DNA of 28,530 nt, taken from positions 1 to 28,530 of IMG/VR virus record IMGVR_UViG_3300030333_001429. One strand, written 5' to 3'. Source of the stretch: a virus. Below the pieces are notes generated by a model. That model worked only from the letters and a program-made list of their open reading frames with translations, did not search any database and was not told the origin of the DNA. Below, in pieces: positions 6,497 to 26,276 of the stretch (positions are counted from its first letter, which is position 1; the number at the start of each line of letters is the position of its first letter). The position numbers and the translations under genes are program-made.

Positions 6497-6518
6497 ATAA
6501 GAGAAAAAAGGGTTTTTT

Positions 6519-6533: not shown

Positions 6534-6549
6534 AGAGTAAATTAGAGGC

Positions 6550-6617: not shown

Positions 6618-6636
6618 AAATTTTTAAGGAGATATA

Positions 6637-7120: not shown

Positions 7121-7121
7121 A

Positions 7122-7638: not shown

Positions 7639-7834
7639 AACTGGCAATAGAAAAGAGTTGATAGAAGAGGTTGGAATAGAACTTGCTGACGACTTCTTAA
7701 AAGCTCACAATCAAATGAGAAATAATAAAGATAACCCTGCATATGATAAATTGAATGAAATTCATGATGAAATGCAGAAGGAGGTAAAGGATGAACAAGT
7801 GTCCAGCTTGCGGCTACAATCTGAAGGGGAGTAA
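7604..7834 (+). CDS. Hypothetical acidic protein (76 aa)
   Basis: ATG 7604 has AAAGGAGA upstream. The protein is helical and acidic (KELIEEVGIELADDFLKAH and similar) with no motif recognised. It overlaps both neighbours (35 bases upstream, 44 downstream), which is unusually compressed even for this operon. The good ribosome sites of both it and its neighbour support three real, overlapping genes. Confidence 0.5.
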   Translation: MGKMSWISHLCETGNRKELIEEVGIELADDFLKAHNQMRNNKDNPAYDKLNEIHDEMQKEVKDEQVSSLRLQSEGE

Positions 7835-8174: not shown

Positions 8175-8176
8175 TT

Positions 8177-8320
8177 ATGTTTGACATAGCAGAATGGATA
8201 GCCAATTTCTTAATACTAGGACTTGGTGTATGTATATGGGCTGTGGCTATTTTCATGACAGCAATGATAATATCTATGGCTAATAAATGGATAAAAGAAA
8301 TAATAGAAAAGGAGAGATAA
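8177..8320 (+). CDS. Small single-pass membrane protein (47 aa)
   Basis: A GAGG at 8166-8169 lies seven bases before ATG 8177; the in-frame ATG at 8171 is too close to it. Residues about 8-34 are one hydrophobic helix (IANFLILGLGVCIWAVAIFM), followed by a basic C-terminal tail (NKWIKEIIEKER), which predicts an N-out/C-in one-span protein. It ends directly against the DUF932 gene, whose ribosome site (GGAGAG) lies in its last codons. Function unknown. Confidence 0.55.
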   Translation: MFDIAEWIANFLILGLGVCIWAVAIFMTAMIISMANKWIKEIIEKER

Positions 8321-9127
8321 ATGTTACAAAATGCAATGTTTCCAGTTAAAGAAGTACCAGCTTATTGGGAGGAAACTAAGAAAAACAAAGGCAATGGTAC
8401 TAGCGTTAGAGAAATGTCAACAGGATACAAGTTTATTGTAAGAGAAGACAATAACAAAGTTCTTAGTTGCATGACCAATGATTATAAATTGGTTAAGAAT
8501 GAAACACTTTTAAAGACTGCGGAACCACTTATTAAAGCGAATGGCGGAGAGATTAAAGAGGTAAGAGTATTCGGAGATGGACAAAAACTTCATACAAGTT
8601 GGTCTTTCCCAAAGAATCTTGTTAAGATAGGAAAGAATGATGAAATGACTCCCGAAATTGTAATCGGGAATAGTTACGATGGTTCTTTAGGTGTAAACAT
8701 AATAGCAGGTGCATTTAGACTTATATGTTCTAATGGTGCTGTTATAGGTGTAGTAGTATCAAAGTATAAGAACAAGCATATCAAAGCAAATGTATCATTA
8801 GATGATATAGGTGATATTGTTTCTGAAACAGTTGAGAAAACAAAACTTGTTATGAAAGATGAGTTTCCTGTTTTAATAGATACTGATTTCAAAGACAAGC
8901 ATATTGTTGACTTCTTAAAGATGTTTCCACTTCAAGCAAATGAAATGGTTACTCAGGCTTTAATAGCAAATAAACCTAAATCATTTTGGGATTTATTCAA
9001 TGTAGGTACTAACGTATTAAGTCACCACATGAATAGAGATAGTCAGTCTACACATGCGATTGAAGGTAAGTTGTATCCTACAATTAAACGTTGGGCTTCC
9101 AAAGAGGCTAAGGTTGCCGTCGCTTGA
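8321..9127 (+). CDS. DUF932-family phage/plasmid protein
   Basis: A 268-residue protein. It has the DUF932 (TIGR03299 phage/plasmid-like) order of motifs: SCMTNDYKLVKNETLL, GGEIKEVRVFGDGQKLHTSW, PEIVIGNSYDGSLGV and AFRLICSNGAVIG, then a long helical C-terminus. Families of this kind are common on phages and plasmids next to recombination and replication genes, but their biochemical role is not settled. The length is typical. Its last 14 bases overlap the preferred methyltransferase start. Confidence 0.8.
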   Translation: MLQNAMFPVKEVPAYWEETKKNKGNGTSVREMSTGYKFIVREDNNKVLSCMTNDYKLVKNETLLKTAEPLIKANGGEIKEVRVFGDGQKLHTSWSFPKNLVKIGKNDEMTPEIVIGNSYDGSLGVNIIAGAFRLICSNGAVIGVVVSKYKNKHIKANVSLDDIGDIVSETVEKTKLVMKDEFPVLIDTDFKDKHIVDFLKMFPLQANEMVTQALIANKPKSFWDLFNVGTNVLSHHMNRDSQSTHAIEGKLYPTIKRWASKEAKVAVA

Positions 9128-9953
9128 TTGGTACGACTGTCCAATCGTGATACCTTATTATGGTGGGAAGTATGAGTTGAGCAAGAGATTTGTTCCTCTC
9201 ATACCCCCACATGATAGGTATTTTGAAGTATTCTCTGGAGGTTTGTCAATGTTCTTCAGAAAGAATAAAGCAGAATGGAACGTACTAAATGATAAAGATA
9301 ACAACATTGTCAATTTATATATGTGTGTGATATATAAGCTTGATGAATTAGTAGATACTCTAAATTGGCTTCCCAAGTCTAGAAAATTATTCTTAGATTT
9401 TAAGGTTGAGGTACAAGAAAAAAGAGAGATAGAGATACCTGACCCTTTGAGAGCCGCCAAGTATTTCTATTGTATTCGTCATAGCTTTAACAAATTAATT
9501 CATACACCTATGTCTATGATAAAAGATTGGAATAAAAACTGGGAAGAAGAGTTTAAATACTCAAGAGAAAAACTAGGAGGTAGTACAATAGAGAACCTAG
9601 ACTTTGCTGAACTAGTAGATAGATACAACCCAAGAGAGGGAGATTTTTGGTATCTAGACCCACCATATTTCGTTGCCCATGAAAAGGGTAATAAGTATTA
9701 TCAACATAATTTCAATGCTGATGACCATTTAAGATTGAAAGAAAAAGTAGATAAGATACACGAAAGCGGTGGAAAATTCATGATTAGTTATGACCATGAA
9801 GAAAGAGTTGCAGAACTATATAAGGATTATGATGTAAGAACTATAGACCTTAAATATGCAGGTGCAACAGATGAGGCAAAGAAAAAGGAACGTAAGGAAT
9901 ACTTAATAATAAATTATGAACCAGCAAATCAAGTTGGTTTATTTGAACAATAG
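9114..9953 (+). CDS. D12-class (Dam-like) DNA adenine N6-methyltransferase
   Basis: From the TTG at 9114 (279 residues), PYYGGK (14-19) is motif X and YFEVFSGGLSMFF (around 36-48) is the FxGG S-adenosylmethionine-binding motif I. Motif IV is LDPPYF, with DPPY at 182-185. This order defines the D12/Dam class. I prefer the TTG because AGAGG lies upstream and D12 enzymes usually start shortly before motif X. The ATG at 9054 lacks a ribosome site and would overlap DUF932 by 74 bases. The target is not readable from sequence, but GATC is the family's usual site and is strongly depleted here. A role in protecting phage DNA from restriction or marking it for replication is likely. Confidence 0.9.
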   Translation: MPSLDWYDCPIVIPYYGGKYELSKRFVPLIPPHDRYFEVFSGGLSMFFRKNKAEWNVLNDKDNNIVNLYMCVIYKLDELVDTLNWLPKSRKLFLDFKVEVQEKREIEIPDPLRAAKYFYCIRHSFNKLIHTPMSMIKDWNKNWEEEFKYSREKLGGSTIENLDFAELVDRYNPREGDFWYLDPPYFVAHEKGNKYYQHNFNADDHLRLKEKVDKIHESGGKFMISYDHEERVAELYKDYDVRTIDLKYAGATDEAKKKERKEYLIINYEPANQVGLFEQ

Positions 9954-9961
9954 GAGCTAAA

Positions 9962-11275
9962 ATGGCAAAAGAAGTGAAGAAAATGCCGTCCGCATCTGAA
10001 GCTGAAGAAGCTTTATTAGGTTGTATATTGGAAGGCGGTGAGAGAGAGCAAGAGATTGCTATGGCTTGGATAAGAGATAATAATGCTTTCTATACTACAG
10101 AGAATCAAGATATATGGAAAGCTATGGCTGAGCTATATAAAGATGGCGTAGATATAGACTTTGTTACTCTATCTGAAAAGATGAAAGATATGACAGGTGA
10201 TAGTAAAGCGTACTTTATAAGTGGGTTACCAGATGCGTTTACATCTCTTGCAAATGTAGAAAACTATGCTAAAATAGTATGGGAAAGATACATACAAAGA
10301 GAGACTGCTAAATCAGCTCAAGCTTTACTTGAGGCTAGTTATGAAGACTACAAAGAAGTAGGTAGTATTCTAGAAAAACATAGCAAATTAATTGAGGAAC
10401 TGAGACACGTTCAACCATCTAAAATAAGAGACATTGAAGTGTTGGTTGAAGAGATGAAAGCAACTGTAGAAGAGGATACAAATCTGATACCATTCAACTT
10501 AGGACATCTTGATACATTTGCAGGTGGAATGACTAGAAAGGAATTAACTGTATTAGGTGGTAGACCCGGTCATGGTAAGACAACTCTAGTAATTAATATT
10601 GTAAAGGGATTGATTGAACAAGGATACAGAGTCATGCTATTCAATCGAGAAATGAGCAATACAGAGATGTTAAAGAAGATGGCAGTAATGGAATCAAGTT
10701 CTCTTAAATACGGAGATATAAGACGAAATGACCTTAATGAAAATAGTAAGGTTGAATTTGAATCTGTATCAGATAGATTGAAAGGTAACTATAAAGAGTT
10801 TCTTATGTATGACAATGTAAGAAGTCTTGATGATTGCCTAAGAGAAATTGCTAAACATAAACCAGATGTAGTCATTGATGATTATATTCAGTTGATACAA
10901 GTAGATGGCATTAAAGAAGGAAGAAGGTTTGAGATTGAAAAGATAATGCAAGAGTATAAATGGATATGTAAGCAAGAGAATTGTTCTGCTATATTAGTAT
11001 CTCAATTAAATAGAGAGATTGAAAAGAGACTAGACCCTAGACCTCGCATGAGTGATTATGCAGAGTCAGGTGTAATAGAACAAACTGCTGAATCTGCTAT
11101 GTTCGTATTCTATGGACATAACTTTGATAGCGATAAGTTTAATCCATACAAAAGTGAGATTATAGTCGCTAAAAGTAGATACGGAAAGATAGGTACTCAC
11201 ATGGTTGGCTTCAATGGTGGTAGATGTAAGTTCTATATGAACTCTACAATGGCGGAGAAAGATAACATTGCATAG
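9962..11275 (+). CDS. DnaB-family replicative DNA helicase
   Basis: 437 residues, close to the usual DnaB length, starting after AGGAGCTAAA. The N-terminal domain (residues 9-105, from SASEAEEALLGCILEGG) is the typical DnaB primase-interacting fold. The RecA-like C-terminal domain has Walker A GGRPGHGKTT (199-208), Walker B VVIDDY (303-308), and the SQLNREIEKR segment with RPRMSDYAESGVIEQTA that carries the family's conserved H4/arginine-finger region. It unwinds the template 5'-3' as a hexamer. No primase or helicase loader was found in the window; either the host supplies them or they lie outside. The next gene starts eight bases inside its end. Confidence 0.93.
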   Translation: MAKEVKKMPSASEAEEALLGCILEGGEREQEIAMAWIRDNNAFYTTENQDIWKAMAELYKDGVDIDFVTLSEKMKDMTGDSKAYFISGLPDAFTSLANVENYAKIVWERYIQRETAKSAQALLEASYEDYKEVGSILEKHSKLIEELRHVQPSKIRDIEVLVEEMKATVEEDTNLIPFNLGHLDTFAGGMTRKELTVLGGRPGHGKTTLVINIVKGLIEQGYRVMLFNREMSNTEMLKKMAVMESSSLKYGDIRRNDLNENSKVEFESVSDRLKGNYKEFLMYDNVRSLDDCLREIAKHKPDVVIDDYIQLIQVDGIKEGRRFEIEKIMQEYKWICKQENCSAILVSQLNREIEKRLDPRPRMSDYAESGVIEQTAESAMFVFYGHNFDSDKFNPYKSEIIVAKSRYGKIGTHMVGFNGGRCKFYMNSTMAEKDNIA

Positions 11276-11549
11276 AAGTTGCTACGGGTGTTTCTACGAG
11301 GTTTCTCGTAAATGCTATTGGTTCCTCTTAACTGGTAATGAAGAGACACCCAAAGCAATCCCTTCTGATGTAATAGATAAAGGTTGCAATAAGTACAAAT
11401 GTACACCATATGAGAGTACACCTATACTTGAATATATAATAAAAGTATTTGATGGTGAGGTAATTAGCAGTAAATATGAGAGACCTACATATAAAAGAAA
11501 ATATGTAAAAAGTCCTCATAAATACTCATATAGGAAGGATGCTCAATGA
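11268..11549 (+). CDS. Hypothetical cysteine-rich protein, TTG start (93 aa)
   Basis: No ATG exists in this frame. The TTG at 11268 is the only reasonable start, with GGAG about ten bases before it. Cysteines at CYGC and CYW near the N-terminus (residues 5, 8 and 17) and GCNKYKC around residue 40 could bind zinc. The C-terminal 30 residues are basic and Tyr-rich. It lies between the helicase and the resolvase, overlapping both, so a DNA-linked role is plausible. The family is not recognised. Confidence 0.55.
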   Translation: MHRSCYGCFYEVSRKCYWFLLTGNEETPKAIPSDVIDKGCNKYKCTPYESTPILEYIIKVFDGEVISSKYERPTYKRKYVKSPHKYSYRKDAQ

Positions 11550-12007
11550 CAATAATAGGAATAGACCCAGGCCAAGGTGGAGCAATAGCTTGTTGGAGAA
11601 AGGGAATAACATCATATAAATGTCCACAAAACGTGGAAACAATGGCTGAAATAATTGAATCATTTCTTGGTCACAGTGAGGATGTGTATGCATATATAGA
11701 AAAAGTACACGCCATGCCACATGACGGAAGAAGTTCTATATTTAAATTTGGCACTAATTATGGAAAATGGTTAGGTATTCTGGGAGCATACCAAATAGAG
11801 ACAACCTTTGTTACTCCACAAAAATGGATGAAACATTGGCAAGAGAAGCTTGGTATTAAATTACCTAAAGATAAACCCAGTAGAAAAAGAGAGCTAAAGG
11901 AAATAGCTTCACATTATACAGATAAAAAAGTTACACTATATAATGCGGATGCTATATTGATAACAATGTACGGACTGTACGATAAAAGGGAGAGTAGTAA
12001 TGAGTAA
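11546..12007 (+). CDS. RuvC-like Holliday junction resolvase
   Basis: This 153-residue protein starts with IIGIDPGQGG: Asp7 in the first RuvC strand. Glu52 in AYIEKV and Asp135 in YNADAIL supply the other acidic residues of the RNase H-like site, so D7, E52 and D135 are the likely catalytic set. RuvC, phage RuvC-like and RNase H-fold resolvases share this order, and the size is typical of a stand-alone resolvase. It would cut four-way junctions made by the upstream annealing system, and possibly branched DNA before packaging. ATG 11546 overlaps the previous stop by four bases, with GGAAGGAT upstream. Confidence 0.85.
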   Translation: MTIIGIDPGQGGAIACWRKGITSYKCPQNVETMAEIIESFLGHSEDVYAYIEKVHAMPHDGRSSIFKFGTNYGKWLGILGAYQIETTFVTPQKWMKHWQEKLGIKLPKDKPSRKRELKEIASHYTDKKVTLYNADAILITMYGLYDKRESSNE

Positions 12008-12206: not shown

Positions 12207-12270
12207 CTCGTAGAGCACTTTGAGGGCGGTGGTTTTTTAAGTTCATTCAATGTCATATCCCCATCGCCCT
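12206..12270. terminator. Convergent gene junction with possible terminating stems
   Basis: Between the convergent stops (12206 and 12253), 12223-12232 (AGGGCGGTGG) pairs with 12261-12270 (CCATCGCCCT) through ten pairs including one G-U. A small GCTC/GAGC hairpin lies at 12206-12216. A run of six T follows the left arm at 12233-12238. The T-run sits inside the long loop, so neither strand shows a textbook intrinsic terminator. The right arm is in the last codons of the 891-residue protein. Confidence 0.3.
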
Positions 12271-14928
12271 GTAAAGTTTTGTAAGCTCTTCATCTTTGGC
12301 TAATTTTTTCTTACGAAGTTTAGATGCCTCTGTTTCTTTTTCTTTACCAGATGTACCGGGGAATAATGTTTTAAAAGGTTCTTTTTGTCTAAGCTCCCTA
12401 GTATGCTTAGTTGGATAAACTCCAAACTCATGCATAAGAACATCCCATCCATTCCCATTGTCTAAAGCTTTATAATCTTTAGTTATTATTTTGGACATCT
12501 GTACATTTATACTTGATAATATTCTTGCTTTTTGTTGGTCTGGAGTTAGTTTATATGCATTATTATATCCAACTAACATATCTACTAGAGCATTATCTGG
12601 AAGCTTCATAAAATCATTTAATGTTGCATAGAAAAATAGGTCTCCAACTGTTGGCCCTATGATTCCCCTTCCTTTAACTTCCTTACCTTGTAAAGCATCT
12701 TTTAAATCTATTATCCTATCAACTGTATCGTTCTCCATAACTCTATGTAGGTCTAAATTCGTTATACCACTCATTAATTCAGTAAATAGATATAAACCTG
12801 CAAACTTCATAGGAACAAATAAATCTGGGTTAGTCCATTGTCTAGCTATCGCTGCGTCAGCCATATTTCTAAAGTTCTTTGATTGAAGTTGCGCAAAAGA
12901 CATTGGATAATGCATAAATTGAAATGCTATTTGTCCAGCCGCTCCTACATTTGAAGATGTACCCCCAGCTAATTTAGCCTTCTGACTAGCAGCGTATTCA
13001 AATGCATACCTAGCAACCATATCAACTGCGTGCAATCTAGCAAGCTTAGAAGCCTCTTTCTCACCAACTCCATTACTCCTAAGTTCTTTAAACTTGTCAA
13101 CAAAGGAATATCTAAACATATGTTTTCTTAAAAAATTCTCAGTTACTCTTTGTAAGATAGCACCATGTCCAGATGCGGATGAAAGAATAGAATCAAAAGT
13201 TCTCCAAACTTTTCCTTCTTTATATTGAAGTACGTAATTACCCTGAGAATTTTCTCTAAGTTCTATGTTTTTTGCTTTTACTCCCTCAGTTGGTAGCAAT
13301 CCTTCTGTAAAAATAGGAGAAGCCATGTCTTCAAATTTAAAACCTTGTTCTTCTTCAGCTTTCCTAACCTCTTCTCTTATTTCTTTATTTTCAAATTTAT
13401 TCCAATCTCTAAGGTATCTAGCAAATGCTAAGTTACCAACGCCTTGAACATAATATAATCCAGACAATGTATTTCTAGTTGCAGTACCAACACCAAATCC
13501 AAGCTTAGCTAAAAATTGAAACCCAGTTAAGGTTCTAACCATCTTATTAACCCAGCTAGGTCTGTCCTTATGTCCATTTTCAGCTAATTTAAATGTATCT
13601 GCAACATAATCAGATATAGCCTCAGCGGCTTTCCCGTCTTTGGGAAGTCCTTTCATTCCTTCAAAATAGAGAGCTTTTAAATGCTGAGCTTTATTAAATG
13701 TAATAGCATCAATAGAGTATTTTCTGAGAACTGTAATTGGATTCTTTAAATAATTTTCATATGGAGCAGACTTTCTAAATCTAGCAGACTTAGGAGTCCC
13801 CATACTTCCTCTCATTTCAGTTAATATAGAGGATAGCTCTGAAATATCTTTATCTGCATTTTTATACCCTTCTTTATCAGCTCTTTCCATTACTCTTTCT
13901 AAATGTAAAAATCCTTCAGATAAATAATGAGGAAAGTAATTACCATTTTCCTTTCCATCTTTTATAGCTTTTATTTCTTCCTGTATTTTATCAAGGTATT
14001 TTTCAACTTTTCTACCCATTGTAGTTTGCAATGCAGATTTTTCCATTGTCCCTAAGTATCCAAGTTGTATAACATCAGCATGTTTTTTAAGTCCAGAAAT
14101 AAGAACATTACCCATGTCATTTAAAAGAAGCCTTGATACCTTACCAGCTTCTACAATATTATTAGAGAATGGAACTCTCTTGCCATAATCAAGGCTATTA
14201 GGGTCATCAATAAGTCTCCCTTCTTTTATTTCTTCAGGAGTCTTTTCTAAATATTCAACAAGTTCTTTTAAAACTTCTCCGCCCTTAGAACCTAGAACTT
14301 CTTTTATTTCTTTTACAATTTCATTAGCTCTGCCAGACTTTGCGTCAGACGTTGGATTGTTAACTTCTAATAATAATTCATTCTCAAGTTTCTCTAACTG
14401 CCTTACTTCTTTTATACCCGGTATAAGAGAGCTTCTACTCCGATTCCTAGCTAGAATTTCAGTTCTTAATAATTTAGATAGAGCTATATGTGAACTGAGA
14501 TATTTAGTAAAAGAATTTCTTTCATAGTTGGTAATAAAGTTTATTTGTTTATTTAAATGATTGGTGATAGCATACTTTTGCATTACACCTCTTCTAACAA
14601 ACCCGTATTTTTCTAAGAAATTAAATTTGGGATTAGAAAGTTTTTTTGATTCCCTTACAATCTCATTTTTTATTCTTCTAAAATCACCTTTAGTAAATCC
14701 AGTGTATGATTCAATAGCTGGTTTATAAGTGCCTCTCCATACTATTTCATCAAACATCTTCCTACCTAAGTTGTCCTCAGCCCTTCCGTAATGGTCAACA
14801 ATAGTATTTCCCAACTTATAATCCTTACCTTCAAAATTTATCTTCTCACCATTAAACAATCTTTTCATTAACCTTAGATTGTCTGATGTGAATTTTTCTT
14901 TATCAGTTAGAGTTACACATTTAGGCAT
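12253..14928 (-). CDS. Putative virion/ejection protein, large (891 aa)
   Basis: Encoded directly after the giant (its TAA abuts this ATG) with a strong AAGGAG, so it belongs to the same virion operon. The N-terminal half is charged and helical. Around residues 465-505 lies a Gly/aromatic hydrophobic segment (LAKLGFGVGTATRNTLSG) that recurs in large phage internal or polyvalent proteins. Near residue 740, KGRGIIGPTVGDLFFY has the G-x-G-x-x-G-P form that I associate with the same class. No catalytic motif is visible. Known relatives of this kind are packaged in the head and pass through the tail into the cell. It may form part of an ejection apparatus with the giant; this is inference from context. 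Confidence 0.55.
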   Translation of the reverse strand: MPKCVTLTDKEKFTSDNLRLMKRLFNGEKINFEGKDYKLGNTIVDHYGRAEDNLGRKMFDEIVWRGTYKPAIESYTGFTKGDFRRIKNEIVRESKKLSNPKFNFLEKYGFVRRGVMQKYAITNHLNKQINFITNYERNSFTKYLSSHIALSKLLRTEILARNRSRSSLIPGIKEVRQLEKLENELLLEVNNPTSDAKSGRANEIVKEIKEVLGSKGGEVLKELVEYLEKTPEEIKEGRLIDDPNSLDYGKRVPFSNNIVEAGKVSRLLLNDMGNVLISGLKKHADVIQLGYLGTMEKSALQTTMGRKVEKYLDKIQEEIKAIKDGKENGNYFPHYLSEGFLHLERVMERADKEGYKNADKDISELSSILTEMRGSMGTPKSARFRKSAPYENYLKNPITVLRKYSIDAITFNKAQHLKALYFEGMKGLPKDGKAAEAISDYVADTFKLAENGHKDRPSWVNKMVRTLTGFQFLAKLGFGVGTATRNTLSGLYYVQGVGNLAFARYLRDWNKFENKEIREEVRKAEEEQGFKFEDMASPIFTEGLLPTEGVKAKNIELRENSQGNYVLQYKEGKVWRTFDSILSSASGHGAILQRVTENFLRKHMFRYSFVDKFKELRSNGVGEKEASKLARLHAVDMVARYAFEYAASQKAKLAGGTSSNVGAAGQIAFQFMHYPMSFAQLQSKNFRNMADAAIARQWTNPDLFVPMKFAGLYLFTELMSGITNLDLHRVMENDTVDRIIDLKDALQGKEVKGRGIIGPTVGDLFFYATLNDFMKLPDNALVDMLVGYNNAYKLTPDQQKARILSSINVQMSKIITKDYKALDNGNGWDVLMHEFGVYPTKHTRELRQKEPFKTLFPGTSGKEKETEASKLRKKKLAKDEELTKLYRAMGI

Positions 14929-17900
14929 TTAACACTCCTTCTCAATCCTTTTTATCAAATCTTTTTCTCCAATATAGTACTCTAAATTATTCTGGATTTT
15001 TTGATATGTTCCACGCTCTCTAACAAATTCCAAATCACCATTCTCATCATACTTTTTTCTAGCCCTAGCTGACATAGACTCAACTTCTTTTCCATAGTGA
15101 TGTTTAAATGCTGGGTCATGTAAATAACCTCTATCTATAGCTAAGTCAAATAATGGGTCATCTACTGTTTTTGATTTTCTACCTCTATATAATTGAGATG
15201 TAAATCCATCAGTAACTGTGTCTGACAATACATTATCATATCTTCTTCTATAGTCTTTTCCGTATATACTAACTATTCTATTTAAAGTTTCTCCATGTCC
15301 ATTGTTAATCATCCACCTACTCATAGCTTTGAACATTCTTTTATTAACTTTAACAACTGGCAACTTAGCTCCCCCAGCTGTCACATATGTATTAAATACT
15401 GGGTCGGGTTTCATCATAAATCTAACTAAATCAGTTACTTGATTATTGTCAATGTTCATTTCAGCTTTTCTTCTTTCTGGATTAGTCCATCTGTCCATAA
15501 AAACTTTAACCATAGCATCTTCTAAAGCTCTATCTAAGACCCAATTTTCCTGAGCGTTTGGATTCTTTTTATTAAATCTGAATGTTTCAGAGGCCATCAT
15601 GCCGAGAGTTTTTTGTAGATTTTCCTTCTCTAAGACGAATCTAGACATTTGCCCCTCATTCCTAAAACCTAAATGATGAATTTGAACATCACCTGTAGCT
15701 TCAAGGAGAGCCCATCCATCAAGAGCTTCACTTGTTCTAATAGGTTTACTAACAATAGGATTCTTCATAACATAATAATCACCCTTGCCAAACCATTTAC
15801 TAGAACCAGATTTAACATATCCAACTTCTTGAAATCTAGTGTTGCCATTTTGATTTTTTGTTTTCTTATATACGAACATGATATTGTTACCATTGTTCTT
15901 TATATACCCACCCCTAGATTTATTAGTATAATTAAATCTTCTTATATTTAATCTTTCGCTTGTCTTTTTATGGTCTTGAGGGTTCTTTATAACTTTACTA
16001 ACCATAGCGCTTTCTAATTCTCTAAGATGCTCAGATATATGCTCTATATGAGAAATCTTTCTTTTTGCTCTATGATGACTTAAGTCGAGATGCTTGCCAG
16101 CTTTTTTAATAAAACTTTGTAAACTCTCTTTTTCAATTCTAAAAGATTCTTGCAATAAAGCATATCTTTCTAAATTTTTTGTACTAATACGTTGCTCTTG
16201 CCTTAGTTCTTTATAGAACTTATCATACCACCCGCCTTCAAATACACCTGCATTTTCTTCATATAACTTTTCAGAGATTCTAGAATCACCGCTAATAGAT
16301 AATAATATATCTAGATTTTCTATTGCTCTACCAGCTTCCATAAAAGCCTTATCTCCTTTTGGAGACCTTGACTGAGTAAATCCATTAAAACTTTTCTTAC
16401 TCTGACTTAAATCCATTACTAACCCACCAGCAACTGTTGAGCCCATAAACTCTCTCTTCATGGTAGAAGGAATATTAAAAATCGATTCAGTTGGAATCAA
16501 ACTTCCAGTTTTATTTTTCTTTCTAAACTCTTTTAGGTTTTTCATGTCCAAAGTAATTCTTGAATAATTTTCTCCAAAAAACATTCTATTAAGAGCTTCT
16601 CTCATTTTTACATTTTCAGGACTTCTTCCTCTATATTTAAAAGACAAAGCATCGAATATATATTTGTCTGGGTTAGCTGCAAAATCATAATAATCACTTC
16701 TAATTTTCTGTATCTCTTCAGCGCTTGGTGGTCTTCTACCATCTACATCAAAAACATCAGTTAATAATCTCTGAGGCTTATTCATTTGTCGTATAAACTC
16801 AAGGACAGAAGACTTTAATACTTCTTGTTGTTGAGGGTTCTTAATTTTATCGAATCCTTTAAAGAACCCCTGAAAGTTTTCCATATCAAAATTCTTTTCC
16901 ATTTCTGCGGTAAGATTATAAAGTTCTGGTTTTTCTCCAAATAATAAATATCTTGTAATTTGTTCTGATGGAGAAGCTCCTGCGAAGTTAGGTCTCTTAG
17001 CAGAATCTATTATAGATTGTAAAACATTTTTATATGTCTGAAGGAACTCAGAAACTTCCTTTGTCCCTTTTACATGAGTAATTCCCATTTCCCCAAGTGA
17101 TATAGTAAAATTATTAGCTGTCTCATTAAATCTTAATATTCCAGATAAAGATGTTGAAAGTTTTTTAACTACCCCAAAATTCTTTTTTGATTGCAAAAAT
17201 AATTTATTATGAGCATCAAATGAATCACCATGCTGACTATTACTTCCAGCTCTACCAGAAGGCCCTGTTTCAAAAAAGTTTAAAGGAGTTTCTATAGTCG
17301 GAAATTGATATGCTTCTATTGAGTGGCCTGCGAATCGATGCAATTCTTTACCCATTTTGCTTGGAGACATGTTATAACTGAACATGGCATCAACATCAAA
17401 ATCAGCTTGATGTATCTGAGCTATATCAAAAACATTTACTCCAACTATATTACCTTGCTCTCTTCTGTAGAATCCCTCAACCCTATGAACAGCTACATCT
17501 CCACCTAAGTTTGGCATCCGTAAAGAAAGCGAACTTAGATATATTCTATTCTTTCCTTTTCCTAGATTGTCAAGGTTATGATCCCTAAGTCTATTATATA
17601 ATTGACCAAATAAAGGGTTACCATACTCTGTTAGCATTTCTTTCTGAATGTTTTCTATCTTACTTATTTCTTGTTGAACATTCTTATCAGTTACTTTAGC
17701 TTGTTTAAGAGGGTCATATATAACCCACTTGCCTTGTTCTTTCCCTAATCTAATATCTCTTCTATCTTTTTTACCCTTAGTTGAAGGTATAGACAATAAG
17801 TACTGAATAGAATCGAAATTGGTTATAGCTGCGTCTTTTCCAAATCCATCTTCATAAGATAATTTTTTACCACCAGCTTTAATAAGTTCTTTCACTCCAG

Positions 17901-20900
17901 TTGTGCTATTTGTTCTATATATAGGAATAGTTCCATTTATATATGGAGTTAATATTGAATAAGAAGCTCCGGTAGCCTTAGGCTTTCTGAGATTAGACAT
18001 TAAATTGTCAAGCATCATTCTTTTTAATTCTTGATGTATTATAGGAGAGTTAGGGTCTAAACCAGCTTCAAGAAGCTTAACTGTTATTCCCTGACCAGAT
18101 TCTTCAATCAATTCATTTCTATCTTTAAGGGCATTTGTTAGATGCCTTGCAACTGCATGCCTATCCCCAGCTCCAAGTACCAATTCTCCAAGATTCCTCA
18201 ATCCGTCATTCAATGTTTCAGAATACCTTCCAAATTCTTTATAACTTTGGAAACCTTCTTTGCTTAAAAAATCAGAAAATGAATATGTAACACTTGTCAA
18301 TCCTTTTCTATCTTCAACTTTACCAAGAAATATATCTTCAAGTTTCATTGTAGATTCATGCTTCGATTCAGCTCTTTTAATAGCTATGTCAGCTACATTT
18401 TCTATGCTCTTACTTGGTAAAGAATCGTATTCAGCTTTATTGATTTCAATCATTTCTTTATTAAATGATTTAGCAGCTGATTCAGTTGTTAGTATATCAA
18501 CACCTTTTGTGCTCATATAATCAGCTATGACTGGGTCATATATAAAATTTGTTTTCAATAGAATACTTTCACCAGCTCTACTAAACCAACCAGTGGGTTT
18601 TACACCAGCTGTCCCATATTTATTACCTTCTTCAGTCCTTCTTCCTTTTGGTAAATATAACAAATCAGCTAATCTATGACTGATAAATGATTGAGCATTG
18701 ATTGATGAGCTATTTAAACTGTTCAATCTTTCCTCAGCTAATTTAACCATTTCCTCATTATATCCTTCGTATCCATTTTCTTTCATACCTTTAAGAAATT
18801 CTAATACAATTTTCTTAGAAGATAGAGGCCCTGTTAGAACGCCTTGTGAATCTTTGAATTCATCTCTAATTCCAATTACTTTTAAATTAGGATTATCAAA
18901 ATAATTTTGTATAGCCTCGGATTGCCTTTCATTGAGGATTGAAGGTTCTTCCCTACTATCCAAAACCATCTCTCTTAAAAATCTTTCTGAAACTCTTACC
19001 TTTGCTCCAGTTGCTTCAGCTAACCCAACATATTTAAAGAATGATGCAGATAAACTTTTAAGTTGTCCTTCATTTTTAGAGGCAGCCACCATCTCATCAA
19101 ACTTATTAGAAGCAACTCTATCAAAATACAAAGCTCTTATCATCGATTTAATCTCTTGACTAGTAGCTGATGTCTGAGTTCTTTCTAGAATATGACTATA
19201 TAGATTTTCAAAGTTATTTCTTTCTAATCTCATTTCTTTTGCGTCATACCATTCTAATTTAGATTCATACCACTCTCTAAATTTTGAATTTAGTAAACCA
19301 GCTGCTTGGTCTCTTGGGACTATCAATGAACTGTTTTGACTGACAACTATCCTTACAGGCTCTCTAAATGGTTCAACATTTGTGTCATTTCTATTTTCAA
19401 TTTCTAATCCTTTTAAATGCCTAATTAAAGTTTCTTGAGATGCGTCTTGAATTTTTGCTCTAGATATAATCTCATCTATCTTTGGAATCTCGTTTATATT
19501 TACTTTTCGACCTTCATGCACCCCAGTGCTTTCTAAGTAAAGAACATCTATTCCAAGTTCTTTCATTTCCCTCTTGAACTCAGCTATTAACCCACTACCA
19601 ACGGTTACCTTATCCAACGCTAAAGTAGGCCTTCCATCAAAGCCAACCGACAATCTCATAGAAGGAACAGATTCTCTACCAATTTGATTAGAAATTATTT
19701 GAGGGTAAACAACCTGTAAAAACTCATTCCACTCTCTTTGGTATCCTTCGGTACCTTCTCCATGCTTGTTAATAAGAGCTTCAGATACATCATTTCTAAT
19801 ACTTTGCTTTGCTTGTTGAATCATTTCCCTATTCAACTCATTTGGGTTGCTAGCATGTATATACAAACTTTCCCTTAGTCTTTCTAGACTTTGATTGAAA
19901 GCATCATGTTTCATAGAATCGCTATATCTTCCATACTTATTGGATAAACCAGAAGCGGATAGAGCTATGTCACCTTTCTCAACATTATAAGATGCATAAT
20001 CATCCATAGCTTCTCTTATTCTTTCTTGAGTCTCGAAATACTTTTCCTCGCTTACCGCAGATTTCCAAGACCTGTGAGATTCTTTTAATATTTCTATAGC
20101 TTCTCCAATCCTATTGCTTTTTCCATATATACTAAGCAAATCATTTAAATTTCTTGCTTCTATGGATTCTTGCTCAAGCTCTGTATCTTTAAAATGCTCT
20201 CTAAGCCTAGATAAAAGCCTCCCTTTTCTTTCTTCAAAAGCAATTCTATCTCTACTATTATTCTGTAAATCAAATATAATTTCTTCTAAAACTGAATTAG
20301 CTCTACCTAAGTTAGCTCCTTGTTCAAGCATAATTCTATTAATTGCATCAGCTGGAGCTTTGACAGCGTTACTTATTTTTGTTTGCCCATGCTCTGAAAT
20401 TAGACCCTCAGCTAAAATCTTAAGGTGACTTCCCCATTCAGCTTCTGGAATGACTTCTGGTGGGTTTGCTTGTAATTTTTCTATTATTCTTAGAGCGCTG
20501 TCAAGTCTTTGCTCTGAGTCCATTAACTGTCTTTCTCTTGGCCCTTCTTGACCTTCTTCCCTAGGCTTGTGTATTATATCAAATAACTTTGTTATATCTG
20601 TTAAAGAATCAACATCCTTATGAATCTTCTCCCTCATCATTTCTATTTCTTGTAGATTTCTTTTTTGAAAACCAGCAGTTTCTCTATGAATAGCATTGAT
20701 AGACATATCTATATTATCTAAGACATCGAATGATGCATGAGTCTTAAAATCAATTTTGCTACCAACTAAAACATCAATCTCAGCAAGAATATCGTCATAT
20801 TTTTTTAGAAGTTCTTTATATTCTGGGCTAGTGCTTTCATACTGAGATAACAAAGCTTGCTCTACAGACTTTCTGTCAACAATCTTTATTACATAATTAT

Positions 20901-23820
20901 CTCTACCTACTGGTTCAACAGAGCCTAATTGCCAATCCCTAATTGATTCTACCAATGTAACATGCTTAGCAGTTAAATTAGGATTCTCTAAAATTTCTCC
21001 GTATATCTCTCTTTTTATATTTTCAACATTATATCTATCAAATGTATGACCTTCCATCTTCAGCATATCTATTAAATTCTCAGCGTGCTCAAATGGAATA
21101 CCTTCTTTATCCATTTTAAGCTTACCATTAGCCCTTCCGACTCCCCATATATCAGCTAACATTGTTAACTGCTCTTCAACTTCAGTCCTTTTTTCAGCTT
21201 TCTCTGCCCATTCTTTATCAGACATTCCCTCAGGTCTTGTTACTGATAGTACATTCCCTTGCCTAATAAAGTCTTTAGGAGCATTCTCACCAAGAACTTC
21301 AGATAAAACATCATATAATCTAGCTTCTCTTTGAGTAAACTCAGAAGTTCTGCCTTGACTTATATTAACCATCTCTCTTTGTCTTTGCTTTCCCTTGTAC
21401 TCTCCAATGGAACGTAAAAATCCATTATCATGTATTTCTATCATTCCTTTAGGGTAATGCTCACTGAAATTATTTAACCTAAAACTTTCAACTACACTAT
21501 TTGCTCTTTCTGATATTTCTCTAGATATAGATTCAAGATTTTCAATTTGATTAACATGCCTTTTTTGCCCAACTTGTTGAGGTATAAAATCTATTAATCC
21601 CATCTCAGCTAATATTTCAACTGTACCTCTAAAGTTGTTTATCTCGCTATATTTTGGGTCAGTATAATTCCTTCCAAAATTACGTGCGTCATCTGCAAGT
21701 CTAGACATTCTAATTGGCTTGTCTATATCTATTGTTTCAGGTCTCTCAACTTCTAATTGCAATTTTTCCGCTACGTCCATAACATATTCTAAATATATCT
21801 TTGCAGAATTTTCAATCGCTGTTTTTTCTACTTCTCTTTTCCATCTATTTATATTCTGTTCAGATAACTTTTCACCCTTAAAATGCCCATCTAAAATTTC
21901 AATAGATTCTAATTTATTTTTAATGTTAGTTAATTCAGATAATGTAAAATCTTCAAGTCTTACATTTTTATCATAGGAACCTTCTTCATGCAAAGACCTT
22001 GCTTTAAAAGCTTTGTCGTATATTTCAAAAGCTTCTAATACAATTTTAAACTCTTGAGTTAATGTTTGAGTATCTCTAATTGCAGTTGCGGGAGCTTCCC
22101 AATCTTTATCTCTTTGCTTTCCACCTGCTTTTTCAAAAATCATTTCTAGTGATTTAACATTTCCATTCCCAAGAATTCCAGTATAAACAGCTGCTTCAGA
22201 CATGTCTTCTCTAAATGAAGAAGCCCAGACCTTATAGTTAGATGAATCCATACCAAGATATTCTAGAACTCTTAACCTCTCTTCAGTTCCACTTGCAACA
22301 TGCTTATGAGTGGATTGAACTATTGGCTTTTTTATTTTTGTAAAATAACCACCTACCAAGAAATGAGCAAATAATTCCTCTGGTGAATGATTTCCTAATC
22401 CACCAATCTTTAAAACGTCAAATAAAGAAGCGGCATTAAAATAAAGACCACCAACAAGCATTCTACCAGTAGATGCAACGAAGTCTTCGCCAGCTTCTTT
22501 ATAAAATTCTTTCCACATTTTATCCACATCAACTTTATTATATATTGCTTTAACAGCGGCGATAGCTTCTTCTCTATCTATATCAACATCTCCCGGTCTT
22601 CTTCTAGACGCTGACTTTCCAAACCCGAAAATAGATTTTCCATCAGCTAGGTAGCTATCTTTGCTTAATATTCTTAGAACTGAATTCGCTTCTTCAGATG
22701 TCATTTTGTCAAATTCCCCTTTTCTCATCTTCCTTTTGACTTGGGGAATTAATCTCCATAGCTTTTTAACTTGTTGAGTTACGTGGACTTTACCACCTCC
22801 TCCCATAGCTTCAACAGCAGGTAGAAGAGTTGAAAATATCATAGCGTCCGTATATGCTTTAAACGGTTCAAAATCTTTTTCTCCAGCTATTGCATAAACA
22901 CCATCTTGAATTAAATTGTATGTTCCAAAATTCATAGTAAGGTCAGCAAATTTAGCAGCGTAACCAGCTATCAATTCTTTATGTTTATTAGTTAATCTTC
23001 TACCGAGTTGACTTTCAACAAACCTACCAATAGTATTAATATGAACACCTCTTGACTTTAATCCATCAGTAGTTGCTTTTACAATTTGAGCTAGGTCTTC
23101 CGTGCTAGCAGTTGGGAAAGCCTGTTTTAAAGATTTTGCTAAACCGCCCATCATTTGAGCCTCTACTCTACCAACAGCTTCTAGGGAAAGTTCATATGAA
23201 TTAATCGCACCGGGTGGTGGGGCTCCCCCTCTCCATGGCCAATTTGCAAACCATTTACTTTCTCCTTTAATGATAGGGTCATCAAATCCTTTCTTTAAAG
23301 CTTCTGAAACTTTATCTACAGAACCAACATTACGAGCTCCTTCTGCATTTGCTCCTAAATCAATAGCTTTTCTAGTAACTCTACCAGTCCCAGCTTTTAT
23401 TGCGTTCTTTGCGGCCCACTTTAGACCACCACTAACCCATTTCATAGGAGTTAAGAATCCAGCAGCACCACCAAATACTTCTCCCATTTTAGCAATACCC
23501 TCAGTACCTTCTTCATAAGGTTTCCATCCAGTCGCACCCTTTAATAGAAAACCGGGTATATCAAAAAGAGAAGCATCTACAAATTCCCACATTCCAGCTC
23601 CAATTGCGTGATGTATTCCACTGGCTTTATCGCCTTCTTTAAGATTGCTTACATCGTATGGTTGTCTCTCTCCTACGCTTGCAAATAAATCTTCATATAG
23701 AGTTCTTTGAGTTGTTTCATTATCTCTCTGAACTGGTAATGAGGGAGCTGTTGTGGATATTTTTTCTCTATCTCTTCTTAAATCGTCAAGAAGTCTTTGA
23801 GTTAATGTATCTAATGCCAT
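14929..23820 (-). CDS. Giant protein (2963 aa), probable virion DPBB RNA polymerase with ejection domain
   Basis: Residues 67-145 and 450-500 are Gly/Ala-rich and hydrophobic, as in phage ejection proteins. Residues about 550-1900 are charged and helical. Residues 2101-2109 (RMPNLGGDV) and 2139-2145 (ADFDVDA) are spaced like the second double-psi barrel of QDE-1-like RNA polymerases, where the pattern is R-x-P-x-x-H-x-G-D-V and, about 30 residues on, D-x-D-G-D or, in crAss-like phage virion polymerases, D-F-D-I-D. Asp2140, 2142 and 2144 would hold the catalytic magnesium. YEDG (1989-1992) may mark the first-barrel region, but that is weak. It would enter the cell with the DNA and transcribe early genes. 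Translation starts by a TAATG overlap without a clear ribosome site. An alternative is a polyvalent protein without polymerase activity. Confidence 0.72.
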   Translation of the reverse strand: MALDTLTQRLLDDLRRDREKISTTAPSLPVQRDNETTQRTLYEDLFASVGERQPYDVSNLKEGDKASGIHHAIGAGMWEFVDASLFDIPGFLLKGATGWKPYEEGTEGIAKMGEVFGGAAGFLTPMKWVSGGLKWAAKNAIKAGTGRVTRKAIDLGANAEGARNVGSVDKVSEALKKGFDDPIIKGESKWFANWPWRGGAPPPGAINSYELSLEAVGRVEAQMMGGLAKSLKQAFPTASTEDLAQIVKATTDGLKSRGVHINTIGRFVESQLGRRLTNKHKELIAGYAAKFADLTMNFGTYNLIQDGVYAIAGEKDFEPFKAYTDAMIFSTLLPAVEAMGGGGKVHVTQQVKKLWRLIPQVKRKMRKGEFDKMTSEEANSVLRILSKDSYLADGKSIFGFGKSASRRRPGDVDIDREEAIAAVKAIYNKVDVDKMWKEFYKEAGEDFVASTGRMLVGGLYFNAASLFDVLKIGGLGNHSPEELFAHFLVGGYFTKIKKPIVQSTHKHVASGTEERLRVLEYLGMDSSNYKVWASSFREDMSEAAVYTGILGNGNVKSLEMIFEKAGGKQRDKDWEAPATAIRDTQTLTQEFKIVLEAFEIYDKAFKARSLHEEGSYDKNVRLEDFTLSELTNIKNKLESIEILDGHFKGEKLSEQNINRWKREVEKTAIENSAKIYLEYVMDVAEKLQLEVERPETIDIDKPIRMSRLADDARNFGRNYTDPKYSEINNFRGTVEILAEMGLIDFIPQQVGQKRHVNQIENLESISREISERANSVVESFRLNNFSEHYPKGMIEIHDNGFLRSIGEYKGKQRQREMVNISQGRTSEFTQREARLYDVLSEVLGENAPKDFIRQGNVLSVTRPEGMSDKEWAEKAEKRTEVEEQLTMLADIWGVGRANGKLKMDKEGIPFEHAENLIDMLKMEGHTFDRYNVENIKREIYGEILENPNLTAKHVTLVESIRDWQLGSVEPVGRDNYVIKIVDRKSVEQALLSQYESTSPEYKELLKKYDDILAEIDVLVGSKIDFKTHASFDVLDNIDMSINAIHRETAGFQKRNLQEIEMMREKIHKDVDSLTDITKLFDIIHKPREEGQEGPRERQLMDSEQRLDSALRIIEKLQANPPEVIPEAEWGSHLKILAEGLISEHGQTKISNAVKAPADAINRIMLEQGANLGRANSVLEEIIFDLQNNSRDRIAFEERKGRLLSRLREHFKDTELEQESIEARNLNDLLSIYGKSNRIGEAIEILKESHRSWKSAVSEEKYFETQERIREAMDDYASYNVEKGDIALSASGLSNKYGRYSDSMKHDAFNQSLERLRESLYIHASNPNELNREMIQQAKQSIRNDVSEALINKHGEGTEGYQREWNEFLQVVYPQIISNQIGRESVPSMRLSVGFDGRPTLALDKVTVGSGLIAEFKREMKELGIDVLYLESTGVHEGRKVNINEIPKIDEIISRAKIQDASQETLIRHLKGLEIENRNDTNVEPFREPVRIVVSQNSSLIVPRDQAAGLLNSKFREWYESKLEWYDAKEMRLERNNFENLYSHILERTQTSATSQEIKSMIRALYFDRVASNKFDEMVAASKNEGQLKSLSASFFKYVGLAEATGAKVRVSERFLREMVLDSREEPSILNERQSEAIQNYFDNPNLKVIGIRDEFKDSQGVLTGPLSSKKIVLEFLKGMKENGYEGYNEEMVKLAEERLNSLNSSSINAQSFISHRLADLLYLPKGRRTEEGNKYGTAGVKPTGWFSRAGESILLKTNFIYDPVIADYMSTKGVDILTTESAAKSFNKEMIEINKAEYDSLPSKSIENVADIAIKRAESKHESTMKLEDIFLGKVEDRKGLTSVTYSFSDFLSKEGFQSYKEFGRYSETLNDGLRNLGELVLGAGDRHAVARHLTNALKDRNELIEESGQGITVKLLEAGLDPNSPIIHQELKRMMLDNLMSNLRKPKATGASYSILTPYINGTIPIYRTNSTTGVKELIKAGGKKLSYEDGFGKDAAITNFDSIQYLLSIPSTKGKKDRRDIRLGKEQGKWVIYDPLKQAKVTDKNVQQEISKIENIQKEMLTEYGNPLFGQLYNRLRDHNLDNLGKGKNRIYLSSLSLRMPNLGGDVAVHRVEGFYRREQGNIVGVNVFDIAQIHQADFDVDAMFSYNMSPSKMGKELHRFAGHSIEAYQFPTIETPLNFFETGPSGRAGSNSQHGDSFDAHNKLFLQSKKNFGVVKKLSTSLSGILRFNETANNFTISLGEMGITHVKGTKEVSEFLQTYKNVLQSIIDSAKRPNFAGASPSEQITRYLLFGEKPELYNLTAEMEKNFDMENFQGFFKGFDKIKNPQQQEVLKSSVLEFIRQMNKPQRLLTDVFDVDGRRPPSAEEIQKIRSDYYDFAANPDKYIFDALSFKYRGRSPENVKMREALNRMFFGENYSRITLDMKNLKEFRKKNKTGSLIPTESIFNIPSTMKREFMGSTVAGGLVMDLSQSKKSFNGFTQSRSPKGDKAFMEAGRAIENLDILLSISGDSRISEKLYEENAGVFEGGWYDKFYKELRQEQRISTKNLERYALLQESFRIEKESLQSFIKKAGKHLDLSHHRAKRKISHIEHISEHLRELESAMVSKVIKNPQDHKKTSERLNIRRFNYTNKSRGGYIKNNGNNIMFVYKKTKNQNGNTRFQEVGYVKSGSSKWFGKGDYYVMKNPIVSKPIRTSEALDGWALLEATGDVQIHHLGFRNEGQMSRFVLEKENLQKTLGMMASETFRFNKKNPNAQENWVLDRALEDAMVKVFMDRWTNPERRKAEMNIDNNQVTDLVRFMMKPDPVFNTYVTAGGAKLPVVKVNKRMFKAMSRWMINNGHGETLNRIVSIYGKDYRRRYDNVLSDTVTDGFTSQLYRGRKSKTVDDPLFDLAIDRGYLHDPAFKHHYGKEVESMSARARKKYDENGDLEFVRERGTYQKIQNNLEYYIGEKDLIKRIEKEC
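17389..17520 (-). other. RNA polymerase catalytic motif region (DFDVD) within the giant
   Basis: On the - strand, codons at 17389-17403 encode Asp-Phe-Asp-Val-Asp (residues 2140-2144) and codons from 17520 onward encode RMPNLGGDV (2101-2109). The metal-binding D-x-D-x-D and the preceding P/GDV element identify a beta-prime-like double-psi barrel. The three aspartates are intact. The middle residues (F, V) match phage-type DFDID more closely than cellular NADFDGD. Confidence 0.7.
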
Positions 23821-24899
23821 TATCTAGGTGAAAGCAGGTCTAATCCCTGTCCTATATCGAATTTCTTCCTTGTTAATCCGTACTCATCTCTTAAATCAAT
23901 ATTAAGTTGTTTCAAATCAGCTATATCTCTTCCAAGAGATTCTATTTGTTGATTAAGTGCATTTCTAATTGCATCTTGATGTTCAACCCTTTCAGCTAAT
24001 GCAGTTGGTATAGACTGACCCATACTAGAAAGGTCATTTGCTTGTTGGATATACTCATCTAAAGCATCTAAATCTTTAAAGCTGTCATTAAGACTTTGTT
24101 GTTTTGTTTGTAATTTAGATTCAACCATTCTAAGCTGCGAAGCTGGGTCATTGCTCCATTCAACTTCCGTTTCTTTTCCAGATGATGGTTGCTCTGAGAT
24201 TGCTTCTCTTTCTAAATTCTCAATAGCTTTTTGGGTAAAAGTAAAATCTTTTTGGAGCTGGTAGTCCCCCTTCATAAAACCCTCAGTCTCTTCTAGTATA
24301 TCAGCTTCTACTTGCTGAGCGGAAGTCATACTATTTAATACATCCATAACTTCTTCATTATCTCTCATGTCAGCAGATATATAATCCATCTTTTTTAAAG
24401 CTTCTATTAATTTATAATCCTTAGTCCCCTTTCTAGGCATGATACCCTTATTAGCCATCTGACCAATAGGAGATAATAACTCCATTAATGGGTCAGCATC
24501 TTTAGCGGTGTATAAAGCCCAAGTTGCAGATACAAGTCGACTAGCTGTTTCTTTATCTATGCTATCTTCTCCTAACGATGGCCACCATTTTTTAGCATCA
24601 TACAAATCATCAACAGCGTCTGTCATTCCTGTTTCTTTCTCATGATGAGATGAATAAAGACCAGCTAACCCAGATTGAGTAACGAATTTATTAGCGGCTT
24701 TTAACTTTAAACTGTCATTAGTCCCTTTCATTATCTCTAAGTTCTTTGCCATTGTTTGCATATCAGTCATTCTTTTTGACTGAGAATATTGCAGTATTTG
24801 TAAAGCTTGTTGAACGTCAGATTTATTTTGAGCTTGCTTATATTGTAATATTCTATTTAAAGATTGTAATACGTCAGAACCGTATGGATTTACTGCCAT
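23820..24899 (-). CDS. Putative virion-associated helical protein (359 aa)
   Basis: I chose the ATG at 24899, which overlaps the upstream TAA (TAATG) and lies about 11 bases after AAGGA. The ATG four codons earlier sits on that ribosome site. The protein is mostly helical and Gln/Asp/Glu-rich. Heptad-like stretches lie in the first 70 residues (LQSLNRILQYKQAQNK) and from about 250 to the end. No enzymatic motif is visible. It ends in another TAATG overlap with the giant, so their synthesis is coupled. It may be a scaffold or internal partner of the giant. Confidence 0.6.
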   Translation of the reverse strand: MAVNPYGSDVLQSLNRILQYKQAQNKSDVQQALQILQYSQSKRMTDMQTMAKNLEIMKGTNDSLKLKAANKFVTQSGLAGLYSSHHEKETGMTDAVDDLYDAKKWWPSLGEDSIDKETASRLVSATWALYTAKDADPLMELLSPIGQMANKGIMPRKGTKDYKLIEALKKMDYISADMRDNEEVMDVLNSMTSAQQVEADILEETEGFMKGDYQLQKDFTFTQKAIENLEREAISEQPSSGKETEVEWSNDPASQLRMVESKLQTKQQSLNDSFKDLDALDEYIQQANDLSSMGQSIPTALAERVEHQDAIRNALNQQIESLGRDIADLKQLNIDLRDEYGLTRKKFDIGQGLDLLSPR

Positions 24900-25564
24900 T
24901 ATGAGAACCATCCTTGATTAGCTTGTTTGTCAGCTAATTCTTTTTCCATCATTAATCTTCTTTTTTCACTTCTTATTCTAGACTTTTCAGTCTCTTGAAA
25001 TTCTGTTATAGTAGCCATATCTTCTCCAAGCTTTCCAATAAGACCTTCCATTCCAGATTTATGCGTAGCTGCAATTCTTTTAAATTGAGTAGATTCTTTT
25101 TCTTTGGCTGTGCCAGATACGGCCATATTACTTTTTTTAACAATGTTTTGTATTTCTTTATTTGTATCAGCTATTGTAGTATCCATTTGAAAAGAAAAAT
25201 CTTCTTTCTCTTTCTCATGTTTTTGAAGTGCTAAATCTTTTCTAGCTCCAACTGCAGTTTCTAAATTCTTCTCAGCTGTTTCTAATTCATTGATTCCTTG
25301 CTGAGCATATTTAGAAGTTGTTCTTGCAGTGCTTTTTTGAGATTGATTTTGTTGATGAGTTTGATATAGACTTAATCCAAAGCCCAAAGCAGTAAAGGGG
25401 TCAAAGTATTCTCTTAATCCAGTCTCAGGATTAATTGTCCCAGAGCCGCCTAAAGCTTTAAGTAAATCCCTTTCTTGTTTATTAACATGGACTAATTCAG
25501 TATCTCCAAATCTTCCCTTTTTTGCAGTATCAGATAAATGCTTATTCGCCATTGAATTCTTCAT
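24899..25564 (-). CDS. Putative internal virion protein with GDT...NPETG motif (221 aa)
   Basis: The frame begins near 25576. I prefer ATG 25564, six bases after GAGG; ATG 25552 (MANKHLSD) is also possible. The N-terminal part, RFGDTELVHVNKQERDLL then GGSGTINPETGLREYFD, is a pattern I recall as recurring in phage proteins encoded near tail and ejection genes. After about residue 65 the rest is a long charged helix (ELETAEKNLETAVGAR and onward), predicted to be coiled coil. The ribosome site lies in the last codons of the upstream gene, so translation is coupled. The exact function is unknown. Confidence 0.6.
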   Translation of the reverse strand: MKNSMANKHLSDTAKKGRFGDTELVHVNKQERDLLKALGGSGTINPETGLREYFDPFTALGFGLSLYQTHQQNQSQKSTARTTSKYAQQGINELETAEKNLETAVGARKDLALQKHEKEKEDFSFQMDTTIADTNKEIQNIVKKSNMAVSGTAKEKESTQFKRIAATHKSGMEGLIGKLGEDMATITEFQETEKSRIRSEKRRLMMEKELADKQANQGWFS

Positions 25565-26276
25565 CATCTTCCTCACTTTTTAGTCCATATCTCTGTAATA
25601 AAAAATCGTTAATATCTTGTGTTTCCTCGTCCCCTGGCGCATCATTGTCTTTTATATTTTTAGGAGCAGGTAGTCCCGAAGCTTCATCAAGCATTGTTTG
25701 GTCTTCTGTTTCTTTTTTTGTAAATAAACCAAGTATACTATCAGCTGCTTCTTTTGCTTTTTCAGCTATATTTAATTTATCTTTTTTATCATTTACTGGA
25801 GTAAAATCACCGCCAGATAAATCTACAGATTCAACATTTCTCTTTAATTCGCTTGCTCCTAAAATTTCATCACCTTTTATTACAACGCCTGCTCTAGATA
25901 AACTATGCACTTTACCAGACTCATCTTGAAAATGATACAACTTTTCTTCACCGCTTAAATAATCCCAAGCTTTCTTTAAGGCATTTCTATCATCTGGCAA
26001 TTCAACTTCTGTTATATTCTCACTTTTTACATATGCTTCTTTTCTTTTTTCAAATTCCTTTTTCTCTTTAATACCTCCATGTATAGTAGAACCAAGTTCT
26101 AAAGCAGTCCCAACAGTTGCAAACATTGCTGATAAATTTTGTTGCTTTATCTGCCCAAGAGCTTGGGATTTATCAATATTTGTTCTTGCAGTTGAGAGAG
26201 CATCCGCTAATGAAGAGCCGTATTTACCAGCACTTTTACCAGCGGCTAGATGTGCAGAGTATAAATTCTTAGCCAT
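25542..26276 (-). CDS. Putative virion-associated protein (244 aa)
   Basis: It starts at ATG 26276 with no visible Shine-Dalgarno; the upstream bases are only A and T with one exception. TTGTTA and TTAAAT 17 bases apart just before the start could be a promoter giving a leaderless or short-leader mRNA, but this is weak. The N-terminal 70 residues are small-residue-rich and partly hydrophobic (AAGKSAGKYGSSLADAL, then MFATVGTALELGSTIHGG). The middle is charged and the C-terminus strongly acidic. Position in the virion operon suggests an internal or tail protein. The family is not recognised. Confidence 0.55.
   Translation of the reverse strand: MAKNLYSAHLAAGKSAGKYGSSLADALSTARTNIDKSQALGQIKQQNLSAMFATVGTALELGSTIHGGIKEKKEFEKRKEAYVKSENITEVELPDDRNALKKAWDYLSGEEKLYHFQDESGKVHSLSRAGVVIKGDEILGASELKRNVESVDLSGGDFTPVNDKKDKLNIAEKAKEAADSILGLFTKKETEDQTMLDEASGLPAPKNIKDNDAPGDEETQDINDFLLQRYGLKSEEDDEEFNGE

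Follow-up and report, generated by a model that had tools for sequence, protein, structure and literature searches.

A giant phage protein with a predicted two-double-psi-barrel RNA polymerase core, most likely packaged in the virion

Gene block and layout of the giant protein

The window analyzed here is the whole stretch of 28,530 nucleotides of viral DNA under IMG/VR record IMGVR_UViG_3300030333_001429 (positions 1 to 28,530). Its minus strand carries a block of genes encoding, in transcription order, proteins of 244, 225, 363, 2963, and 891 aa, and the features of this block are collected in Table 1. A region of early type lies on the opposite strand (165-12007, +), with genes for a ParB-like protein, a PD-(D/E)XK/Cas4-like exonuclease, a DUF932 protein, a D12-class adenine methyltransferase (Dam-type), a DnaB helicase, and a Holliday-junction resolvase. 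No match to a defence system was obtained. Early promoters distinct from those of the host had been predicted in an earlier note on this DNA, and no sign of them emerged: sigma-70-like sites showed no excess (52 versus 59 ± 7 in shuffles), no shared intergenic 12-mer rose above shuffles, and scans for early promoters and terminators likewise gave nothing above shuffles.

Table 1. Positions of the genes and protein segments discussed in the text
Feature	Position in window	Strand	Basis
891-aa protein, encoded immediately 3' of the giant gene	12253..14928	-	Adjoins giant gene in relatives examined
Giant protein P0001, 2963 aa, with predicted RNA polymerase core	14929..23820	-	ORF list and translation; relatives' full-length genes
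C-terminal part, residues 2501-2963, conserved	14929..16320	-	Relatives' alignment
Core as modelled, predicted two-barrel RNA polymerase, residues 1560-2470	16411..19143	-	Model, fold and profile matches
LQSIIDSAKRPNF, residues 2266-2278, with invariant D2272	16987..17025	-	Conservation
Second double-psi barrel motif, RMPNLGGDV to D2140-F-D2142-V-D2144	17389..17520	-	Conservation; profile match, P 6e-6
Putative first double-psi barrel segment, about residues 1705-1785	18466..18708	-	Lys conservation, profile match
N-terminal part, 1479 residues, conserved in relatives	19384..23820	-	Relatives' alignment
363-aa protein, upstream, one-base overlap with giant gene	23820..24911	-	ORF; similar-size gene there in relatives
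Overlapping pair of small genes (225 and 244 aa)	24899..26276	-	ORFs; similar-size genes in place in G002

Within the giant protein, RMPNLGGDV (residues 2101-2109) and DFDVD (residues 2140-2144) lie exactly where the earlier note had placed them, and no long ORF runs on the plus strand opposite the motif. The distance from the Arg to the first Asp is 39 residues, equal to that in the virion RNA polymerase of phage phi14:2 (R1322 to D1361), a 2180-aa protein named gp66 in the literature and carrying the locus name Phi14:2_gp077. D2140, D2142, and D2144 would form a putative Mg2+-binding catalytic triad. A DFDxD motif is expected about 0.02 times by chance per shuffled protein, and R.P..G followed by a correctly spaced D.D.D occurred in 0 of 2000 shuffles, a count that is indicative only, as the pattern was picked after the motif had been seen. 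The putative first-barrel segment contains an NAQ motif, K1741, K1756, and ILTTESAAK (K1784). Farther downstream, LQSIIDSAKRPNF is possibly the bridge-helix region, an assignment made by eye from its resemblance to LINAHVDVAKDPYI of crAss enzymes.

The N-terminal part is Gly/Ala-rich around residues 70-150 and 320-500, and Gly/Ala-rich segments within residues 1-1480, such as GAGMWEFVDASLFDIPGFL and GEVFGGAAGFLTPMKW, are strongly conserved. It had been described as hydrophobic at its start; no classical transmembrane segment was found there, the best 19-residue Kyte-Doolittle mean being 1.34 (residues 454-472). A marginal match of this part to phi14:2 gp080 scored 8.9 bits across some 90 residues and was set aside as probably due to chance.

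Relatives and conservation of the putative active site

Used as a single query, the full-length protein had no match in Pfam, PHROGs, PDB sequences, viral contigs, or phage records. Relatives were instead reached with the motif region, the neighboring 891-aa protein, and an alignment of the motif as queries, which together gathered more than 20 distinct environmental viral contigs. Complete giant genes in these relatives encode about 2831-3135 aa and are directly followed by a member of the 891-aa family. No isolate relative was present among 50,697 phage records, the A2 profile found no relative in bacterial and archaeal genomes, and neither the A2 nor the A6 profile had a true match among PDB sequences. 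An Aeromonas phage match (E 0.3) was rejected, as it sits in an unrelated protein. One contig carrying a relative of the giant/891-aa pair, L070 (IMGVR_UViG_3300030107_004423), is 82.9 kb long versus about 50 kb for the other long contigs, and genome size in the lineage may vary widely.

The core alignment comprises 25 sequences with 16-86% identity to the window. Eight residues are invariant in all 25 (D2140, D2142, D2144, P2103, D2108, N2129, Q2138, and D2272), and K1596, K1741, K1756, and K1784 are Lys in each of the 24 sequences that reach these sites. DFDVD itself, put forward in the earlier note as the conserved element, is thus retained in its three Asp and variable in between: F, W, H, N, G, or Y occurs at 2141 and V, G, A, or M at 2143, with F and V being replaced in distant relatives to give DWDGD, DNDGD, DHDGD, DYDGD, and others. 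What this alignment shows to be conserved is D-x-D-x-D, of which the textbook D-x-D-G-D is one form, amid a freely varying background.

These patterns bear on whether the protein is still an enzyme. A two-barrel fold with lost or changed activity, for instance in an ejection protein with a structural role and no action on nucleic acid beyond binding it, would suit a protein whose catalysis is predicted and whose remainder has no known function. Against this, three Asp and three Lys are invariant at 16-20% identity while neighboring positions vary, which points to catalysis, and we regard loss or change of activity as very unlikely.

Profile comparison and predicted fold of the core

A set of crAss-like RNA polymerases was aligned for this analysis and compared with profiles of the family. 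The core profile matched this alignment at the motif with P 6e-6, and the 25-sequence profile matched with P 1.1e-5 over 489 collinear columns that span the DAQ/NAQ motif, the SAAK lysine, and the triad. The match varies with alignment settings: under the option -M first, it was weaker (P 0.0018) and fell in the same place. The first barrel alone independently matched the crAss first barrel in the region of phi14:2 K1065 (P 3e-4), and control comparisons with the barrels crossed gave no match. Against the same crAss-like polymerases, 30 column-shuffled profiles all remained at a probability of 0.1% or less, and control profiles of the N-terminal part, the C-terminal part, and the neighbor protein had no match.

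Of the profile comparisons proposed beforehand with the enzymes of phi14:2 and SPbeta (YonO), the one with the crAss/phi14:2 group gave a match (P about 1e-5), and YonO gave a weak second match aligned at the motif. P23-45 gp64, compared as a single sequence, gave no profile match. Profile comparison places the core nearer to the crAss enzymes than to YonO or gp64. The polymerase domain of the phage N4 enzyme is T7-like, and no Pfam RNA polymerase match, to that domain or another, was met in the giant protein.

A template-free model of residues 1560-2470 computed from the 25 sequences reached pLDDT 81.6 and pTM 0.81; it replaced a poor first model from 14 sequences (pLDDT 66), which had also put 6vr4 at rank 1. 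In a Foldseek search of the PDB, the final model retrieved 6vr4, the phi14:2 virion RNA polymerase, at rank 1 (E 3.6e-9), followed by the P23-45-type gp64 and gp62 and then by cellular largest subunits. Against 6vr4 the TM-score is low, at 0.32, a value that may arise when long proteins are very distantly related. VIA-align ranked QDE-1 best (Z 14.0 over 471 residues, 4.9 Å), ahead of gp64 (11.7), 6vr4 (11.6 over 594 residues), plant RDR2 (10.9), and gp96 (10.6), with cellular polymerases at Z 8 and below; the leading matches of the model were all two-barrel RNA polymerases. In BFVD, three viral proteins without a name headed the matches (E down to 3e-26), ahead of many crAss-like phage proteins; structural relatives are thus already in public databases, unnamed.

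The rank of QDE-1, which has been solved with both RNA and DNA templates, raises the question of whether the two barrels serve a different activity, for example synthesis that is RNA-templated or primase-like. The closest sequence match and the closest Foldseek match are nevertheless one and the same DNA-dependent phage enzyme, and we know of no RNA-templated step in such phages; we therefore hold such an activity to be highly improbable. That an unrelated giant virion protein carries the motif by chance is barely credible in turn. The missing sequence matches in Pfam, PHROGs, and PDB would fit this reading, but it is contradicted jointly by the conservation, by the separate matches of the two barrels, and by a confident model. 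Because conservation, profile match, and predicted-fold matches converge, the core is identified, at the level of sequence and model, as a single-chain two-barrel RNA polymerase, which upholds the QDE-1/crAss-like assignment and the two barrels proposed in the earlier note. Of the outcomes named there as refuting, the two that were examined did not occur: the predicted fold matches two-barrel polymerases, and the Asp triad is conserved throughout.

Packaging and comparison with known systems

No virion genes were recognised in the window itself, and the virion-operon position once claimed for the giant gene is instead backed by synteny in relatives. In the relative G002 (51.7 kb), a block of the same shape follows the terminase (TerL), portal, and capsid genes on one strand; its portal is P22-like (PF16510, E 4e-47) and its capsid protein SU10-like (PF17236, E 3e-18). 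This gene order, together with the types of portal and capsid protein, suggests a short-tailed phage in which the giant gene is a late gene of cargo type. The 225- and 244-aa products are candidate ejection proteins. The 891-aa protein, whose gene adjoins the giant gene in those examined loci that have both genes complete, is probably a partner or a second virion cargo protein. It has no Pfam or PHROG match, and its family has no clear match in phi14:2. It is kept better than the giant protein itself, with 26-62% identity to relatives and many invariant residues. A phmmer search of the ORFs of at least 150 aa from the window, G002, and G003 against phi14:2 gave no match at E 0.01, so membership in Crassvirales, which may still hold, gains no support from it.

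A functional two-barrel polymerase need not travel in the virion. Like P23-45 gp64 or YonO, it could be made in the infected cell and serve the middle or late genes; non-virion two-barrel enzymes exist according to PMC10770324, and YonO is the second, weak profile match aligned at the motif. The giant protein nonetheless has 2963 aa with large conserved extensions, compared with 616 aa for gp64 and 839 aa for YonO, and in relatives its gene lies in the late block after structural genes, where cargo and ejection proteins are usually encoded. An unpackaged enzyme is accordingly an unlikely reading.

We consider it likely that the core in the middle third (residues ~1560-2470) is a single-chain polymerase with two double-psi barrels, homologous to the crAss virion RNA polymerases, in a protein packaged as in phi14:2 and N4. 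Gene position, size, and analogy make it most likely that the protein is packaged, enters with the genome, and acts in early transcription. Several copies of the giant protein would be packed in the head as cargo, would pass unfolded through the short tail together with the neighboring late proteins, and would refold in the cell, transcribing the first phage genes while DNA enters. On the evidence of conservation, profile match, and predicted fold, the conserved lysines K1741, K1756, and K1784 belong to the first barrel and the putative metal-binding triad D2140/D2142/D2144 to the second. Roles in ejection, membrane passage, or promoter binding would fall to the conserved parts on either side of the core.

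The family is absent from the searched libraries (Pfam, PHROGs, and PDB sequences) and from the 50,697 phage records. No description was found in the literature searched, with the qualification that the supplementary survey of PMC10770324 may list it. The relatives probably represent a separate, unisolated phage lineage, known from environmental DNA, that would bring its own transcription machine. Virion-type two-barrel polymerases would thereby extend to a divergent lineage missing from the family libraries and phage records searched, and the 25-sequence alignment would add a new distant branch for comparing single-chain two-barrel enzymes with cellular and RNA-interference polymerases. More tentatively, and with real doubt, this short-tailed lineage outside the crAss order may have reached the N4 strategy independently, with a crAss-type two-barrel polymerase placed centrally in an ejection protein of 2800-3100 residues, which would both help form the entry path and transcribe the incoming genome. 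It becomes testable whether short-tailed phages acquired giant virion polymerases on more than one occasion, with a T7-like fold in N4 and a two-barrel fold here.

Among known systems, the phi14:2 enzyme is the best sequence-profile and Foldseek match of the core. The two share the order of two barrels in one chain, R.PN.G and D-F-D-x-D at the same 39-residue spacing, a DAQ/NAQ motif ahead of the first barrel, and three lysines in the same order (K1012, K1027, and K1065 in phi14:2), the first two with a common spacing of 15; as a further likeness, a large structural-protein gene follows the phi14:2 polymerase gene. They differ in length (2180 versus 2963 aa) and in flanking proteins, and identity is 14% over 489 aligned columns, with 25% over 51 columns at the motif. 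For crAss001, RNA polymerase-related proteins have been detected in virions (PMC10172136). The eukaryotic RNA-dependent RNA polymerases QDE-1 and RDR2 share the core fold (VIA-align Z 14.0 and 10.9), whereas they are cellular RNA-interference enzymes with 10-13% identity and without giant extensions of this kind.

P23-45 gp64 and gp96 share the two-barrel fold, and gp96 is also a giant virion RNA polymerase, described in PMC10770324 as a two-barrel polymerase fused to a tape measure protein. Its polymerase forms the N-terminus of this tape measure, which has 5002 residues and belongs to a long-tailed phage, whereas here the core lies mid-protein (1560-2470 of 2963, with 1559 residues ahead) in a lineage with a P22-like portal. 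YonO of SPbeta is likewise a single-chain two-barrel polymerase, with DNDGD as its motif, but it has 839 aa, is prophage-encoded, and is without giant extensions. Relative to N4 (Schitoviridae), whose gp50 carries a T7-like domain, the predicted two-barrel core would be a convergent solution. The likeness lies in architecture: gp50 is a giant virion RNA polymerase of 3500 residues, in which the polymerase lies centrally between an N-terminal domain that associates with the membrane and a further domain at the C-terminus (PMC12633501). Both proteins fall at about 3000-3500 residues with the polymerase in the middle, and N4, too, is a short-tailed phage in which small ejection-protein genes adjoin (PMC12633501).
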